NCBI GenBank assembly: GCA_031282725.1
Contig: JAITDD010000027.1
Span: 1 to 41,536, forward strand
DNA from: Mycoplasmataceae bacterium
Lineage (GTDB): Bacteria > Bacillota_I > Bacilli_A > Mycoplasmatales > Mycoplasmoidaceae
Length of the DNA: 41,536 nt
Reading direction: 5' to 3'
Position numbers and translations under genes: made by a program. The notes under the pieces were generated by a model that was not told the origin of the DNA, did not search any database, and saw nothing but the letters and a program-made list of their open reading frames with translations. This document shows positions 8,713 to 35,042 of the stretch, piece by piece. Each line of letters starts with the position of its first letter. Position 1 is the first letter of the stretch.

Positions 8713-8803
8713 TGGCGGATGCTGAGAGATTCGAACTCCCGCATAGCTTTCACTATCTATCGGTTTTCGAAACCGAACCCTTCAACCACTTGGGTAAGCA
8801 TCC
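8713..8803 (-). tRNA. tRNA-Ser(CGA)
   Basis: 91 nt including encoded CCA. The acceptor stem GGATGCT pairs with AGCATCC. The anticodon stem TCGGT/ACCGA encloses the loop TTCGAAA, anticodon CGA, reading UCG. The long variable arm has an ATAG/CTAT stem, the class II shape expected for serine. The T-loop is TTCGAAT. A TATAAT box lies 10 nt upstream. Confidence 0.95.
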
Positions 8804-8813
8804 AATAAATATG

Positions 8814-8819
8814 ATTATA
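8814..8819 (-). promoter_or_regulatory. -10 box (TATAAT) for tRNA-Ser
   Basis: TATAAT on the minus strand, 10 nt before the mature tRNA 5' end. Confidence 0.6.
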
Positions 8820-8851
8820 TTTCAGCTTCAAATCGACGTTTTTTAAAAAAA

Positions 8852-9661: not shown

Positions 9662-11218
9662 TTATTTAATTCTTAGATAAATCGGAGATGCTTCGTTAAC
9701 TTTTAAGCCCTCGATGATGTTGATGTTATTGATAGAAGAATATTGGGTCATTTCTGAAGTAAAGTTCATCATTTGATTAATTAGAGCACAACCTTTAACA
9801 AGAACAGGAGAAAGAAGAATACTCATAGTTCTAACAGCATCGGTTAATATGAAAAGAAAGTTGTTTATTTTTTCTTTATCGTTCGCTTTATTAATTTCTC
9901 AAGGTTTACTGTTTTCAATATATTGGTTAATATCTTTAGCATAGTTATTTACAAGAGTTAAAACTTCTTTGATATTAAAATTATTGATTTCGTTTTCGAT
10001 CAAAGGGAGAAGCGCTTCTTTAGCTTTTAACATTTTTTCCATTTCAGAAGTAAGGATGTTAGATTCTAAATGAACTTTTCCTGAATTGTAAAGGCGTAAC
10101 ATTCCAATAGTTCGAGAAACAATGTTACCATATATATTTGCTAAATCAGAGTTAAAAAGTTCAACATATCTTTTTTCAGAAAAACAGTTGTCAGAATCTA
10201 AAACGAATTCTTTAAGAAGATAGTATCGGAAAATATCGGAACCATATTTATCGCAAATAATTTCAGGATCGATAACGTTACCAAAGGATTTACTCATTTT
10301 TCTTCCATCTTCCGCCATAATAAAGCTGTGACTAATAACTTTAGAAGGAAGGTTAAGATTAATGGAATGAAGAAGAATAGGCCAGAATACTGTGTGGAAT
10401 CGTGCAATATCTTTTCCGACAATGTGAACAATTTGAGATTTATCATTATTTCAGAATTTTTGATATAAAGAGTCGTCTGGTTGTAAATAACCTAAGGCAG
10501 AAACATAGTTGAATAAAGCATCTAATCAAACATACATTACATGCTTTTTGTTTTCAAGAATAGGGATACCTCAGGAAAAGGTGGTACGACTTATAGAAAG
10601 ATCTTCTAATCCTTTATTAACGAAATTATTAAGCATTTCGTGAGTTATTTTTATTGGGTAGATAAAGTCTGGGTTAGAAGTGATGTAGGTTTTTATTCAA
10701 TCAGTATATTTTGCCATTTTAAAAAAGTAGGAGGATTCGGTTCTATTTGATAGTTTATGGCCAACACGACAATATAAACAACCATCCTCTTTCTTAATAG
10801 CTTCACTTTCATTGTAGGGTTCTTCACATCCTAAACAATACAAACCTTTCCATTCTCCTAAATAAATATCGTCATTTTTAAGCATAGTTGAAAAAACCTT
10901 TTGGACAGTATCGATGTGTTTCGGGTTAGTAGTTCTGATAAATTGGGAATAGTTAATGTCAAGTTTTTTTCATAAATCAGTGAAATAAGGAACCATAGAA
11001 TCAACATAAGCTTGGGAGGAATCAAACCCTTCTTCTTTTGATTTTTGTTCAATCTTTTGTCCGTGTTCATCCAATCCTGTTAGAAAGTAAGAATCAAAGC
11101 CAATTAGTTTTTTATAACGAAAAATTACATCAGCCAAAATAGTGGTATATGCTGTACCAATGTGAGGTTTTCCGCTGGGGTAATAAATGGGGGTTGTTAT
11201 ATAGAACTTTTTTTCCAT
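9662..11218 (-). CDS. metG: Methionyl-tRNA synthetase
   Basis: 518 residues, the normal length for mollicute MetRS. It charges tRNA-Met, both initiator and elongator, in the cytoplasm using ATP. The Rossmann catalytic domain opens [20 protein letters not shown], with the HIGH-type motif PHIG at about residues 18-21. The knuckle contains CLGCEEPY and a second DGCLYC pair. The KMSKS loop [15 protein letters not shown] is at about 304-318. The C-terminal anticodon-binding helices end in YLRIK. Several TGA codons are Trp. No dimerisation (Trbp111-like) C-terminal extension is present. It is transcribed from a palindromic box shared with the divergent gene at 11235. The ATG is 7 nt from TATAAT, so the mRNA should be leaderless. 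Confidence 0.97.
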
Positions 11219-11234
11219 AAATATAATTATATTT
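11219..11234. promoter_or_regulatory. Palindromic bidirectional -10 element
   Basis: AAATATAATTATATTT, 16 bp, is a perfect palindrome and fills the entire gap between the ATG of metG (minus, 11218) and the ATG at 11235 (plus). Each strand carries TATAAT followed by 7 nt and then ATG. Two polymerases could not open both promoters at once. Confidence 0.7.
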
Positions 11235-12086
11235 ATGCTATTAATCTTCTTTTATATCCGAAATAATATTAAAAATTTGAAGCTTTCTTTGGAATCATTA
11301 TTTTCTTTTTCTGATAAAAATGTTGATATTCATATTTTTTGTGATAATTGTAATGAAGAAATTGGACAAGTATTGCAAAACTTCGATTTTTCAAAAAAGA
11401 ATATTCATTTAACAAAGACAAATAAGGTTTTAGGAATCGATTATTTTATTTCAAATAACTTATTCAATACAAAAGGGGAATATGTTTGAATTATTGATGG
11501 GATTGTTAATGTAAATAGTTTAAATAAGATTAGCAAAGAGATTGAAGATTCTACTTTTGATGTTATTTGTTTCAATTCCGCAAAAACAAAGGTTGTAGAA
11601 AGTGATGCTATTGAAAAAAACTCCTTCCTTTTTAAACCGATATTTGTTGATAAATTATTTAGTTTAGAGTTTTTGAAAAAGAACATTGCATTCTTTAACT
11701 CTTTTAGTTATCTTTCATTTTTTTACAAAGTTTTTTCTGTCGCAAAGAGATTTAGTTTTTTAGAGGAAAAGGTAATTGCGACAACCAATATTGATTTTCA
11801 ACAAACTCTTGATATTCACAAGACATTTATCTTGGCTAATGATTTTTTAATAAACTATAGCCAGGCAAATTTTTGGAAAAATAATAAGATTCTTCTTGAA
11901 GGACTTTTTGTTTATTTCTTTATCAATGTTTTTTGAAAACAGATTAATGTTTGTGAGAAAAATAAGGTTATTCGTCAAATCTATTTTAACGGAATCAAAA
12001 ATTTTTTAACTCAATCTTTTCCTAATTGAAAAAACAATCAAAACTATTTCTCTTCTTTCAATATAAACCTTAATGAATGAAAATAG
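11235..12086 (+). CDS. Possible family 2-type glycosyltransferase
   Basis: 283 residues, four TGA codons read as Trp. The N-terminal part resembles the nucleotide-sugar fold of GT2 enzymes in outline: a first strand and helix [19 protein letters not shown], a second strand [11 protein letters not shown], and an [20 protein letters not shown] segment where GT2 proteins have a -GEYI-x-x-D-x-D- strand. The second Asp of a DxD motif is not evident (IDG), so activity is uncertain. The C-terminal half is Phe/Asn-rich and unlike anything I recognise. First gene of an operon with an RDD protein (14-nt overlap) and pcrA. Leaderless start 7 nt from TATAAT. It could be an enzyme for surface glycolipids or a degenerate relative. 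Confidence 0.45.
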
Positions 12087-12747
12087 ATATTATTTAGCTA
12101 GTTCTTCGAAAAGAGTTTTTGCCAGGGTATTTGATTTGCTTCTTACTTATGCTTTCATTATTGGGCTATTCTTTTTATTGAATTTAATCCAAAACTTCGA
12201 TCTTAAAACTATTCTTTTCGCCTTTTCCTTTTTTCTTATCCATTTTTGTTATTTTATTCTAATTCCTTTTTTTTGTAAACAGACTTTATTCATGCTTTGT
12301 TTTAAGATAAAAATGTACAATAAAGAAAAAAATTTCTTGCTTAATTTAGGTAAAAGGGAGTTTTTTATTTGAATTGTGCAGGATTTTATTTTCTTCTCTT
12401 TCTTTATATCTCTTTGTTTTTTTAGCGAAGGAAATAGGGAGAAGATTCTTAATTATTTATTTTTTAAGAAAGACGAGACCGGATTTTCTTCTGTTCATAT
12501 TCTTCCGATAATTTTTAATGCCTTACTTGGTTTTTCGGTATTGATGCAAATTTTCATTTTAATCGCCACAATTTTAAAATCAAACAAAATGACTTTATTG
12601 GATGAAATTTCTCATATTGTTATTTTTTATAACAAGAAAGAAGAAAATAAAGAAAAAAAAGTTACATTTAACAAAACAATATTACAACCCAAGATCCTTC
12701 CTTTTGTTTTATCGGAAGAGGATAGAAAGGAGGTTGAAAAATTGTAA
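12073..12747 (+). CDS. RDD family membrane protein
   Basis: 224 residues, one TGA as Trp. It starts YYLASSSKRVFARVFDLLLT, the R-x-x-A-R-x-x-D arrangement that defines the RDD family, at the head of the first membrane helix (about residues 17-40). Further hydrophobic segments lie at about 46-70, 101-119 and 139-162, followed by a soluble Lys/Glu-rich tail ending in EEDRKEVEKL. RDD proteins are poorly characterised; a few are implicated in ion exchange. The start overlaps the preceding gene by 14 nt and the stop overlaps pcrA in TAATG. Confidence 0.7.
12726..12733 (+). promoter_or_regulatory. Shine-Dalgarno sequence before pcrA
   Basis: AAAGGAGG, with 13 nt to the pcrA ATG at 12747, inside the end of the RDD gene. 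It is the clearest ribosome binding site in the window. Leaderless first genes have none, so it marks internal operon initiation. Confidence 0.6.
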
Positions 12748-14939
12748 TGCTGAATATTAATTATTTGAACCAAAATCAAAAAAAAGCTGTTTGTGCCCCT
12801 TTTAATGTGCCTATTGTTGTTATTGCTGGAGCCGGGACTGGAAAGACAAAAGTTTTAACATCCAGAATTATGTATCTTCTTGATGAATTAGAGTTTAATT
12901 ATGACAATATTTTAGCATTAACATTCACAAACAAGGCAGCTTATGAAATGAAGGAAAGAATCGAAAAGGCAGGGTATAGTAAAATAACATGAATGAGTAC
13001 TTACAGTTCTTTGGGATTACGCATTTTAAAAGAAGAGATTGGGAAATTAAGAAGAGATAGTAATTTTGTTGTTATAGATGAACAAGAACAAAGCGAAATC
13101 ATCTTATCATTAAAAAAGAAAATGAATGCCGGATTGGAGAAAAAACTAAGTAAGTCTCCCCGAGTTATTTTAGGAATTATTAGTGGAATATACAGCGGTT
13201 TTTTTGACAATGTGTATGAAGAAGAGTTTAATTCCATTTTATCAAACAAAAAGTTTTGGCTCCCTTTTATGTTAAATGAAGAAGAAAAAAAACAAATTTT
13301 TGATATATTCATACAGTATCACGAAACTAAAAAAAACAATAATTATGTTGACTATGACGATTTGTTATCACTGCCTCTTTTAATTTTTAAGAAGAATAAG
13401 GATGTTGTGGAAAAATGAAGAAAACGATTTGCTTATATTCTTGTTGATGAGTTCCAAGATACAAGTTTTATCCAATTTACTTTCCTTCTTTATCTTTTAG
13501 ATCCTTCTCACAATAATCTTTTCGTTGTTGGAGATCCTGATCAAACGATATATACATGAAGAGGAGCTTACCCACAGATATTTCAAGATTTATACGACAA
13601 ATTTCCTAACTGTATCAAAATTACGTTAGACAAGAATTATCGTTCCATTCAACATATTCTTGATGCCGGAAATAAGGTGATAGCTAATAATAAAAATCGA
13701 GAAGATAAAAAATTAGTGAGCGATATTAAAGAAGGGGAGTTGGTTAATATCTATATCGGTGATAACAAAGAGAAACAATGGAATTTTGTAATTAGTGAAA
13801 TTGAAAAGTTAAAAGGAGAGTATTCATATCGAGATATTGCCATTTTATATCGAAGTAAGAATGAAACATCCTTAATAGAGAACAAATTTGCAGTAAAAAA
13901 AATGCCTTACAAAATATTCGGTGGGATTAAGTTTTGACAAAGAAGAGAGATTAAGGATATTGTTGCTTTTTTAAAATTTATGATTAATCCGAATGATGAA
14001 TTGGCATTGATTAGAATTATTAATTTTTCAAGAGTGGGAATAGGGGAAACCAGAATTAACAATATTGCTAAAAGTGCCTTTGAGAAAAAAATATCCTTTT
14101 ACGACGAATTAGAGAATATGGAAAACGAAAAGATACAAAACTTCGTTAATCAAATAAATAATATTAAGGATACTTGTTTCAATTTGACTGTTTCCAAAGC
14201 TTTAACAAAAATTGTGGAAATGTCCTTTTACCACGACTTTTTAATGAACGAATACGAGATTAATGACGCAAAAGAAAGAATAGAAAATGTGAACGAGTTA
14301 ATAGTTACCGCAACAGAAAAGGAGAAACAAATGAAGGAAGATGTTTCTATATCCGAATTTTTAGCAGAAATATCTTTATACATTACAGCCAATGATTCAA
14401 TTAACGAAAATAATAAAGACTATATCTCATTAATGACAATCCACCATGCCAAAGGTCTTGAATTCAAAGTTGTTTTTGTCGTGGGAATGGTGGATGGTAT
14501 TTTCCCAAGTAGTAACGCCGAGAATTATGAAGAAGAAAGAAGGTTAGCTTATGTTGCGATTACAAGAGCAAAGGAAAGGCTTTATTTATGCGGATATAAA
14601 GAGATATTGGGTTATTTAAAAAGTAGATGAGATTCTGCCCCTAGTTTTAGTTTTATTCAAGAAGCAACAGGATTACATACAAAGAAGGTTTTTGATAGTG
14701 TTAAGACTTTGACAGATTTGGAAAACTCATGATTCGATTCTACTCAACAAACTTCTGTGAAAGATAGGTATAATGAAGAAGCGATCGACATTAATGTTGG
14801 GGATAGTGTTGTGCATACTTTATTTGGGGAGGGACATGTTGTAGGGGTTAGCAATGATTATTTAGATATTGTTTTTAATGACGGAAAAAGGATGACAGTG
14901 AACGCAAAACATAAGGCGATTAGCAAGAAGATAAATTAG
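12747..14939 (+). CDS. pcrA: ATP-dependent DNA helicase PcrA/UvrD
   Basis: 730 residues, the usual PcrA length. A 3'-5' superfamily 1A helicase for nucleotide excision repair and removal of recombination intermediates or stalled RNA polymerase. Motifs in order: Q-motif LNQNQKKAV; Walker A VVIAGAGTGKTKVL; Ia TFTNKAAYEM; Walker B VDEFQDT (Phe where Tyr is commoner); motif III GDPDQTIYTWRGA, whose Trp is TGA; motif IV LDKNYRS; motif V LMTIHHAKGLEFKVVFV; motif VI RRLAYVAITRAKERLYL. The C-terminal domain VGDSVVHTLFGEGHVVGV is the Tudor-like module typical of PcrA. The TAATG junction with the RDD gene plus the Shine-Dalgarno support this start. Many TGA codons are Trp. Confidence 0.96.
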
Positions 14940-18214: not shown

Positions 18215-19528
<1,314 letters not shown>

Positions 19529-30911: not shown

Positions 30912-32753
30912 TTATGAAGTTTGCGCTATGCCTAATTTCATTTGCAAATTTCGTATTTCTTCCGCATTTATTCTTCTCGCATTTTCCTTTCTTACACCAT
31001 CTTCTAAGGCTTCAATCGCGGCGGTTGTTCCACATATTTTTTGGTAGTATCTTTCCATTTCTATTCGTTCTTCGTTTTGTTGTCTTACAGCAGTTTCTTG
31101 TTCTGTTTCAAAGCGTTGAATTCGATGAATATCTTTGATTTGAGGCTCAGTATTACAAACAACATAATGTTCTTCAGTAGTAACCTCAAAATTGGTTTTA
31201 GCTTCCACTAACCTATCAAATCTTTCTTTTTCAACAGTGTCTTCAAGCGCTATTGACACACTTGAAATACTTACATATCTTTTTGTTTGAATTGATTCAT
31301 CAATAGCGTCAGTAACATCGTGTGATAAAGTAGTCGCAATTTTTCTCTCAATTTGACTAGAAATTTTTTCTATTTCTTCAAGTTGGCCGGAAAAAAAATC
31401 TCGTTGTTGCGGATTTTTAATTTTCTCTTGAAGGTATTTTTTAGATTCCTCGAGTATATGAGAATCATTAATATCTTTAAAAATTATTTCAGCTGTTTTG
31501 CGATACGAATATAAGGTTGAATCAATAGCGGCTCGAATTTCTGGATCAGTTTCTGATGCTGATAAAAAATCAAGATTTTCAGCTAAATCCTGCAATATAC
31601 ATACATTTTCTAATATCATTATAACACCTCCGGTATTTAATTGTTGGAAACCTTTATTTATTAATTTTTCTGTGGAGGAATTAATAAAACTAAAAGTTGG
31701 GGAATAAGTTAAAAAAGACTTCGAATAACCAGCGAGTTTTGCTTCTAATTTTTCTCTTTCTTCTTTTGCTTTAGTTTTGGTGGTTTGAAATCTAAAACAA
31801 GATTCTTCTATTTGTTTTAATCTCGATATTTCCGGCATTATTTTTTTGCATCTATTAAAGAATTCAAGATTACAACTACTTGCATATAAAGCATCAGAAA
31901 TAGCGCAGCAGCGTTGGGATGTAAGAGCGGCTATTTTTTGCTGTTTAGTTGAATTCAGCCATAAATAATCAGAAAATTTTCTTCGATCGTAATAAACAAC
32001 CCCATCAGAATCGGTTGTTGTAGGGATATTTACCGAGGTGATAAGAACTTCATTAACACCTGTTTCAAAAAATATTCTACCAGGATGGTAACCTAAATCA
32101 TTGCCAACGGTAGTTCGATTTGTAAACATATTATCAACTAAAAAGCTAGTGAGCGGATTTTTAACCGATGCTCTATCAACACGTGGACCTTCACCAGCTG
32201 AATTCAAAATTTTGTTTTTAGAAACTAATGTTCTTTGTGTTAATAATAAAATCTGTCGGTCTTGTCTGTAAGACATTTTTTTATAATTGTGAACCAATGC
32301 ATATGGAAAAAAATTATCGTATCTCGTTTGTTCAATAACTTTTTGTTTTAAAACGCAATTTTTGAAAAAATCGGAATAATCTTCTTTTAATTCATCTGCA
32401 GTTTTTACAACTCTAGTATTAACAACAGAAGAATCGGCAAAATCGGTATTTTCTAAACTTATTTTTAATCGTTCAAATCGAGGTGATTTATTAGAAAGTA
32501 TACCCACAACAAAATTTCGCAACTTTGTTTCATTAGTAATTATCTCTTGGCTTAACATTTGTTTTCGCAATTCAAAAAATATTTGTCGACTTTCTTCATC
32601 AATAGTTTGATCATTTAATAATGAAGTGAATTTTGAGTATATTGCGATTCAAATAGGACTAAATCTTAAATACCTTGTATCAACTTCAATTTTTCTTTCC
32701 AAACTTGCATTTAAGCTATGTAGTACTCTTTGCTCTGTTGCAGATAAAATCAT
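30912..32753 (-). CDS. Large coiled-coil protein of unknown function, 613 aa
   Basis: The ATG at 32753 precedes the first ATG visible under standard code because a TGA (Trp, in FSPIWIAIY) interrupts it. The protein is soluble and helical. A central globular part contains GNDLGYHPGRIFFETGVNEV and a CC pair (QRCCAISDALY). Long coiled-coil segments follow at about 300-330 (TKTKAKEEREKLEAKLAGY) and 520-600 (RQQNEERIEMERYYQKICG, then a charged Arg/Glu helix). No signal peptide or membrane helix. Trp is rare. Promoter TATAAT at 32776-32781 would give a leader of about 15 nt. Together with the 390-aa and 308-aa proteins it forms a cluster of unknown cytoplasmic helical proteins that could be cytoskeletal. 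That is speculation. Confidence 0.65.
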
Positions 32754-32775
32754 ATATGTACGGGCGTGTAAAGAT

Positions 32776-32781
32776 ATTATA
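32776..32781 (-). promoter_or_regulatory. -10 box (TATAAT) for the 613-aa protein
   Basis: TATAAT on the minus strand, 22 nt before the ATG at 32753. Confidence 0.4.
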
Positions 32782-32795
32782 TGGATCTATTAATT

Positions 32796-32801
32796 TATAA
32801 T
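32796..32801 (+). promoter_or_regulatory. -10 box (TATAAT) for pflB-pflA
   Basis: TATAAT 6 nt before ATG 32808. It lies downstream of the in-frame ATG at 32781, so the longer form would not be transcribed from it. This sets the pflB start. Confidence 0.6.
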
Positions 32802-32807
32802 ATACCC

Positions 32808-35042
32808 ATGGAAAAAGAAACAATAAATGTAGGAAAATTTATAAAGGAAAATTATACCCCTTATTTAGGTGACTCTTCCTTCTTAAAAGGACCTAGTCAA
32901 AAGACAATGAAAGTTTGGGAAAAAGTTAAGGATTTATTTACTTTAGAAAGAAAGAATAAAGGAGTTTTAGGATTTGACAAAAGAAATAGTTTCGCCGATG
33001 CTTTTAAAGCAGGATATATAGATAAGGAGAACGAAACTATTGTGGGAATTCAAACAGAACAACCTCTTGTCCGTGCTTATATGCCTATCGGGGGAGTAAA
33101 ACAAGCAAAAGAAGCCGCAAACCAATTCGGGTATACTACTGATGAAAATGTTGATATGATATACTCAAAGTACCGTAAAACTCATAATCAGGGTGTTTTT
33201 GATGTTTACACTCCCTCAATGAGAAAAGCAAGACATGTTCATATTATTACTGGACTTCCTGACAATTATGCAAGAGGGCGTATTATCGGGGATTATCGTC
33301 GTGTTGCCTTATATGGTGTTAATTTCTTAATGAAACAAAAGGTTAGCGATTGAAACAAGATAGACAATGAGATGAGCGAAGAGAAGATAAGATTAAGAGA
33401 AGAATTGACAGAACAATACAATGCTTTAAATAGGATGAAGGTAATGGCGATGGAATACGGGTTTGATATTTCTTTAAAAGCAAATAATGCAAAAGAAGCT
33501 ATTCAATGAACCTATTTTGCCTATCTCGCTTCAATAAAAGAACAGAATGGTGCCGCTATGAGTTTAGGAAGAGTATCTACCTTTTTTGACATCTATATAC
33601 AAAAGGATATTGAAGAGGGGATATTAACAGAAGAAGAGGCACAAGAATTAATTGACCAGTTTGTAATAAAGTTAAGAATTGTTCGTTTTTTAAGAGCTGA
33701 TGCTTATAACCAATTGTTTTCTGGAGATCCTGTTTGGGCTACCGAATCTATTGGCGGAATGGGAGAAGATGGACGAACTTTGGTTACCAAAACATCTTTT
33801 CGTTTCTTACATACTCTTTCAAATCTAGGACCTTCTCCAGAACCAAATCTGACTATTTTATGAAGCGAGAAATTGCCTTTGAATTTTAAAATGTTTTGTT
33901 CTTCTTATTCAATAAAGTATTCTTCTATCCAATATGAAAATGATGATTTGATGAGAGAAAGCAAGGGAGATGATTATGCTATCGCTTGTTGTGTCTCTTC
34001 AATGAGAATTGGGAAGGAAATGCAGTTTTTTGGTGCTAGGGCTAATTTACCGAAAACTCTTTTATACAGCATTAATAATGGATATGACGAAATCCACCCA
34101 ATTGATCAAAAAACTAACAAAATAAATAAGCTAGGGCCTGAGTTGGGACAATATCCAATGAACCAAGTTTTAGATTATGAAACAGTTTATGCTAGATTCA
34201 AAAAATATTTATCGTGACTTGTAGATTTGTATATTAATATGCTTAATGTGATCCACTACATGCATGACAAATATTATTATGAATCAATGCAAATGGCTTT
34301 ATATGATACTAATGTGACTAGGTTTATGGCGACAGGAATTGCTGGGTTTTCGATATTAGTGGATAGTTTAAGTGCAATAAAGTACGCCAAAGTAACTCCT
34401 GTTTGAGAAAAAGTGGAAGGGACAAATGATTACATTGCTACAGACTTTAAAATAGAAGGAGATTATCCGAAGTATGGGAATGATGATGATAGAGCTGATA
34501 ATATTGCCAAAGAAATTCTTTTATTGTACAATGAAGAACTAAAGAAACACAAACCTTATCGTAATTCTATTCCTACTGTTTCGATTTTAACAATTACTTC
34601 CAATGTTGTTTATGGAAAAGCAACAGGAAATACTTGTGATGGTCGAGTTAAGGGAACCCCTTTTGCTCCTGGGGCTAATCCGATGAATAAAAGGGATGAA
34701 AATGGTGCAGTATCATCTTTATGTTCTGTTGCAAAGCTTCCTTATTCTTGTGCTTGCGACGGAATCTCGAATACATTCACAATTACCCCTTCTACCTTAG
34801 GGAGTGGTTTAAAGGAACAGGAAAAGAACTTGTGTCAATTATTGGATGGATATTTTAAAAAACAAGGGCACCACTTAAATGTGAATGTATTAAATAAGGA
34901 AACATTAATTGACGCAATGAAAAATCCGGAAAAATATCCGCAATTAACTATTAGGGTTTCTGGGTATGCTGTTAATTTTATTAAGCTAACAAAGGAACAA
35001 CAAGAGGATGTTATTTCTCGAACATTCCACGAAAAAATGTAA
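32808..35042 (+). CDS. pflB: Formate acetyltransferase (pyruvate formate-lyase)
   Basis: 744 residues, the family length. It converts pyruvate and CoA to acetyl-CoA and formate by a glycyl-radical mechanism without oxygen. The active-site cysteine pair is in [20 protein letters not shown] and the [19 protein letters not shown] segment follows. The C-terminal radical site [20 protein letters not shown] carries the glycine that PflA activates. Many Trp are TGA, which splits the gene under standard code. The start is placed at 32808 ([16 protein letters not shown]) from the -10 box. The gene overlaps pflA in TAATG. Acetyl-CoA from here would feed acetate and ATP formation, with formate as waste. 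Confidence 0.97.

Follow-up and report, generated by a model that had tools for sequence, protein, structure and literature searches.

In the 41,536-nt contig of a Mycoplasmataceae bacterium analysed here (the window, considered at its full length), two divergent genes are separated by nothing but a perfect 16-bp palindrome, AAATATAATTATATTT (11219–11234), which raises the question of how both genes can be expressed from such a short interval and what its symmetry means. The palindrome forms the entire gap between metG and a gene for a glycosyltransferase family 2-like protein (GT2). Since the gap is flanked by CAT (the metG start codon on the minus strand, 11216–11218) and ATG (11235–11237), the exact palindrome extends to 22 bp. 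Judged from the sequence, the 16 bp very probably represent two ordinary leaderless promoters fused back to back into a bidirectional promoter of the Warman-Grainger kind. The genes and signals concerned are listed below, with the positions of the window.

9662–11218, minus strand: metG, methionyl-tRNA synthetase, 518 aa in genetic code 4 (Pfam PF09334, E = 1.2e-99)
11235–12086, plus strand: glycosyltransferase family 2-like protein (GT2), 283 aa in genetic code 4 (PF00535, E = 2.8e-4)
12073–12747, plus strand: RDD family membrane protein, 224 aa, second gene of the operon (PF06271, E = 4.2e-6)
12747–14939, plus strand: UvrD/PcrA helicase, 730 aa, third gene of the operon (PF00580 and PF13361)
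11216–11237, no strand: full exact palindrome including both start codons, CATAAATATAATTATATTTATG (from the sequence)
11219–11234, no strand: putative common core of a divergent pair of leaderless promoters (from the sequence and genome-wide promoter statistics)
11222–11227, plus strand: putative TATAAT -10 element of the GT2 operon, 7 nt to ATG (from the sequence and the genome-wide peak 6–9 nt before ATG)
11226–11231, minus strand: putative TATAAT -10 element of metG, 7 nt to ATG (from the sequence and its geometry)
11235, plus strand: predicted GT2 transcription start at the A of ATG, leaderless mRNA (from spacing, purine preference and the YA initiator signature of the 6-nt class)
11218, minus strand: predicted metG transcription start at the A of ATG, leaderless mRNA (from spacing, purine preference and the YA initiator signature)

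The genes were read with genetic code 4 (TGA = Trp); table 11 makes them look fragmented. metG was present in nearly all relatives searched, and GT2 homologues were found in 23 of the 36 genomes of the genus. The GT2 assignment itself is weak, with a PF00535 score of 21.3 bits that lies slightly under the gathering score of 23.3. Both start codons are credible, because the homologues of metG (72% identity) and GT2 (46%, on ATG) in the closest relative (G039) align from residue 1. A GT2-RDD-pcrA operon, as proposed in the preliminary description of this DNA, is likewise credible, since the gene order is preserved in three relatives (G039, G043 and G054). The genome is a MAG with an estimated completeness of 75%, which leaves some room for an assembly error at the metG/GT2 junction.

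The gap measures exactly 16 bp, and TATAAT, 7 nt and ATG follow each other on both strands, as had been described. The two -10 elements also overlap as claimed, with 2 bp (11226–11227) at their downstream ends common to both hexamers. Two traits of leaderless genes were found on either side, namely a -10 box spaced such that the start codon would be +1 (7 nt in both cases) and an AUG start that is not preceded by a Shine-Dalgarno (SD) motif, none being present within the 16-bp gap. A -35 match at usable spacing was found on neither strand of the locus. Elsewhere in the window, a copy of the 16-mer with one mismatch (8807–8822) is situated immediately upstream of the gene for tRNA-Ser(cga) (8713–8803, minus strand). 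There, a TATAAT on the minus strand stops 10 nt short of the tRNA gene, which makes the copy the likely promoter of this gene.

The whole genome (876 kb, 29% G+C, a mycoplasma-type MAG with termite-gut relatives) was then read with code 4, using a set of 622 open reading frames of at least 100 aa that were taken from the first ATG, with uncurated starts. An exact TATAAT ended 6, 7, 8 or 9 nt before the first ATG in 88, 33, 33 and 31 of the 622 genes, respectively (~30% of all genes); it was almost absent at 3–5 nt and dropped slowly out to 13 nt. The control anagram TAATAT, in contrast, was found 15, 7, 6 and 11 times at the same four distances, without a comparable peak. At distances of 5–9 nt, TATAAT preceded 40% of the divergent genes and 37–46% of the co-directional genes with a gap of at least 15 nt, compared to 4% of the tightly packed operon-internal genes and 0–1% at upstream control positions. 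When the distance was extended to 6–13 nt, 218 of 422 transcription-unit-leading genes (52%) carried the hexamer. The signal was specific for ATG, with 136 occurrences of TATAAT-N6-ATG versus 14 with GTG and 20 with TTG at the same spacing. In the 6-nt class, T directly preceded ATG in 71 of the 88 genes (81%), a pyrimidine-purine initiator signature which suggests that +1 is the A of ATG. In M. gallisepticum, transcription starts 6 nt, rarely 5 or 7 nt, after TATAAT (PMC4245973), so that a spacing of 6 or 7 nt to ATG would mean a leaderless or nearly leaderless transcript. The metG/GT2 locus uses 7 nt as opposed to the 6 nt preferred in the genome, and a 1-nt leader is therefore possible.

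SD-like motifs were found in only 1 of the 185 genes with TATAAT 6–9 nt before ATG, and SD motifs in 35 of the 622 genes genome-wide. The tail of the 16S rRNA retains the anti-SD sequence (GGAACACCTCCTTTC); an intact anti-SD, CACCTCCTTTC, is located at the 16S rRNA 3' end on contig 18, around position 2119 (L049), despite the small number of SD-bearing genes. In the window, serS (18215–19528, plus strand) combines an SD-like AGGAGG with a TATAAT 8 nt before ATG. Because the AGGAGG precedes the -10 box, a transcript initiated from that box would not contain it. The extended -10 motif TGn was not in excess among TATAAT-bearing starts, and TTGACA-like sequences with at least four of six matches were mildly enriched only (70 of 185 versus 40–49 in controls); the lack of a -35 element at the locus matches this rule. 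Both elements were considered as parts of the locus and rejected, given that TGn shows no excess and that no -35-like match is paired with the boxes. Judging from these frequencies, leaderless or near-leaderless starts seem to be the default in this genome and to apply to about half of its transcription units. The preliminary description had rightly taken the gap as the whole promoter region of both genes, a view backed by the sequence statistics, but overlooked that TATAAT-N7-ATG would imply leaderless mRNAs, apparently the genome default.

A search of the genome for further short ATG-to-ATG gaps, which had been suggested before, identified eight gaps of 13–23 bp among 107 divergent pairs. 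Exact TATAAT hexamers were present on both strands in all eight, compared to 20 of 74 gaps of 26–400 bp (Fisher P ~9e-5), and other anagram hexamers were found on both strands in at most four of the eight. The metG/GT2 gap is the only one of the eight that is a perfect palindrome throughout. The tightest gap comprises 13 bp, CATATAATCATATTATATG, and lies outside the window (contig 23, 11298–11310; L053) between genes of 1830 and 1680 bp, with each TATAAT starting inside the opposite start codon. Among the genomes of the family, the shared-core form CATN6ATTATAATN6ATG was detected at 12 sites in 10 genomes, versus none for the reversed control. The window also contains a 27-bp divergent gap (32754–32780) between the genes at 30912–32753 (minus strand) and 32781–35042 (plus strand); here, the minus-strand TATAAT starts within the opposite start codon, and 22 nt separate its end from its own ATG.

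Bidirectional promoters are established in bacteria, with start sites 7–25 bp apart (PMC10268837, PMC12825309). As proposed for the metG/GT2 locus, such Warman-Grainger promoters have a short pseudo-symmetric -10 region that serves two opposite-strand starts at this distance. Steric exclusion is expected in both cases, and a -35 element is little needed. The locus shows the defining overlap or interlocking of -10 elements on opposite strands. The 18-bp form that is preferred but not required, in which -7T and -11A are reciprocally paired, was not found, as the -10 register differs. With both transcripts starting at ATG, the predicted start sites would be 17 bp apart, near but not equal to the commonest distance of 18 bp. 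The locus further differs from Warman-Grainger promoters in that its two perfect TATAAT hexamers overlap by just 2 bp at their downstream ends, with predicted starts 17 bp apart, in that both mRNAs are predicted to be leaderless and in that the shared core fills the gap between the genes completely. PMC12825309 makes no use of the word 'leaderless'.

In 2011, Zheng et al. described leaderless genes whose -10 box is located ~12 bp ahead of the start codon, and they reported a mean of 18.3% for five Mycoplasma genomes (PMC3160421). As at the locus, the spacing of TATAAT in these genes makes the start codon the 5' end, and an SD motif is lacking. Their Mycoplasma mean is far below the values obtained for the present genome (~30% of all genes at 6–9 nt, ~52% of leading genes at 6–13 nt). 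The 46% reported for Deinococcus radiodurans is near the latter value, with methods and denominators that differ. Among related mollicutes with TATAAT-dominated promoters like those of this genome, 16% of the M. pneumoniae mRNAs have a 5' UTR of at most 8 nt (PMC10568206), and nine leaderless transcripts are known from M. gallisepticum (PMC4245973), which also shares the 6-nt spacer to the start site. Short leaders are thus a minority in these two species, whereas they look like the main class in part of the genus of the window's organism.

The proposed arrangement is built from a simple unit, a TATAAT 6–9 nt before ATG, two copies of which would have 2 bp in common. RNA polymerase with the housekeeping sigma factor would bind in either orientation, melt the same AT-only block in each case and begin transcription at the A of each ATG or no more than one nucleotide away from it, giving rise to two leaderless mRNAs that would be translated without an SD motif. 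Rearrangement or a compaction of the gap within this lineage is the most likely origin of the layout, which most likely does no more than allow both genes to be expressed. Going by footprint size and by PMC12825309, the two boxes would both lie within each transcription bubble, and two initiating polymerases could not coexist. Steric exclusion between polymerases at the locus is thus plausible, and it probably matters little at basal firing rates.

In the preliminary description, the overlap had been interpreted as built-in mutual exclusion between the two genes. If this were a selected regulatory device, the firing of metG would block GT2-RDD-pcrA and vice versa, acting either as an either/or switch or as a noise-limiting balance. 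The position of each -10 element inside the melted region of the other makes simultaneous occupancy impossible in principle, and in an E. coli bidirectional promoter, the other direction is repressed and the noise between cells declines when one direction fires more strongly (PMC12825309). However, the five E. coli bidirectional promoters tested in that study fired too seldom at basal level for their two directions to compete, and interference was seen only once one direction had been strengthened (PMC12825309). The pairing itself is absent in the closest relative, which argues against a selected switch: in G039, the GT2 homologue follows an upstream gene and has its start at TAATG, and metG, there with a longer leader, is found on a separate contig. 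The seven further compact gaps, moreover, suggest a general layout rather than a special device. We also know of no functional link between metG and the GT2 gene, another point against such a device. A regulatory switch is therefore unlikely. Of the exclusion proposed earlier, the steric part appears plausible and the regulatory part is not borne out, so that the preliminary description as a whole is partly supported, with the gap, the -10 overlap and the operon standing.

The symmetry could alternatively reflect an operator bound by a dimeric repressor that controls both genes, and the shape is indeed the classical one for such a site, a perfect dyad of 22 bp situated in a shared promoter. 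Palindromes of this length nevertheless occur at chance frequency. The genome contains 37 perfect palindromes of at least 16 bp, compared to 35–52 in first-order Markov random genomes, and four of at least 22 bp, compared to 1–3. Palindrome length alone was consequently rejected as a sign of significance at 29% G+C. The correctly spaced TATAAT on both strands, unlike the palindrome itself, is beyond chance. Furthermore, two leaderless promoters with 7-nt spacing in a 16-bp gap make the central 10 bp, TATAATTATA, palindromic by necessity. Only the outer 3 bp are free, and two leaderless starts agree there in ~6% of draws (P ~0.06), so that two promoters plus this coincidence account for the symmetry. 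The 22-mer is present in a single copy in the genome even when up to three mismatches are allowed, which leaves no regulon, and the palindrome was kept at metG in none of the 29 relatives inspected. The pattern CATNNNTATAATTATANNNATG has no second occurrence in the 95 genomes of the family, and a search for conservation of the exact junction, using patterns with 6/6 and 7/7 spacing around TATAATTATA, returned one match each. A recurrent or conserved palindromic site was thus not found, and an operator is very improbable; the palindrome would be a by-product of promoter geometry. A cruciform or hairpin was also considered and rejected, as the single-strand fold of the palindrome as DNA is weak (-4.6 kcal/mol) and would lie outside the transcript if the mRNAs begin at the ATGs. 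That the TATAAT boxes are chance occurrences in an AT-rich gap, with transcripts starting elsewhere, for instance inside the neighbouring genes, is suggested by the 29% G+C of the genome and by the 16 genomic copies of TATAATTATA, most of them elsewhere, yet has hardly any probability left given the spacing-specific enrichment of TATAAT before ATG, the presence of both boxes in all eight compact gaps and the failure of a consensus scan to find a strong -35/-10 pair near the gap reading out of the neighbouring genes.

Nearest among the named relatives are MAGs that carry the label Mycoplasmataceae. Two of their sample codes, Kf353 and Nm470, belong to Kalotermes flavicollis and Neotermes meruensis, both of them lower termites (PMC11707648), and the host of the window's organism is presumably a termite as well. 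TATAAT-N6-ATG was at least 3-fold enriched over the reversed control in about a dozen of the 36 genomes of the genus; in several further members of the genus, as in most of the family's other genera, it stayed close to background. When T was required before ATG, the pattern outnumbered its control by 105 to 4 in the present genome and by 100 to 6 in G040, and it was modestly enriched in some other families of the order. In G043 (312 kb sampled), 94 of 158 leading genes carried TATAAT at 6–13 nt, with T at -1 in 45 of 49 cases. In G061, of the same genus (360 kb sampled), TATAAT was found at this distance in 30 of 164 leading genes, and SD-like motifs were found in 81 of 295 genes. When a ratio of 3 was taken as the cut-off, ten genomes counted as high; in a metG tree, eight of these fell into one well-supported group of nine that includes the window's genome, and the ninth member (G035) lies slightly under the cut-off. 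A single clean origin of the leaderless-rich state was not recovered with this cut-off, as the ten high genomes require four changes on the tree. In three genomes (G102, G113 and G118; family f9, genus g19), the reversed control GTATNNNNNTAATAT occurred 124–182 times per genome versus 6–7 times for the pattern, an excess that is probably due to a dispersed repeat. The literature was also searched for reports on leaderless expression in mollicutes of termites, with no relevant result.

In a wider reading, TATAAT-N6-ATG with T at -1 might act as a joint promoter and translation start at most gene starts in part of the genus, so that gaps of 13–23 bp would yield two leaderless mRNAs from one AT-only block, and the occupancy of the block by one polymerase might balance the two directions or limit noise. 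We offer this proposal tentatively and, in its full form, would lean against it.

A working divergent gene junction may thus shrink to 13–16 bp, with the promoter merged with the translation start. More notable than the palindrome is that about half of the transcription units in this genome seem to start almost without an untranslated leader. The organism appears to belong to a gut-associated group of mycoplasmas that seem to express their genes mainly from leaderless transcripts, at a share close to the top values given for bacteria by Zheng et al. Such genomes would be good natural tests of ribosome initiation without leaders, and they hold a warning to annotators, because start prediction based on SD motifs would fail in them.
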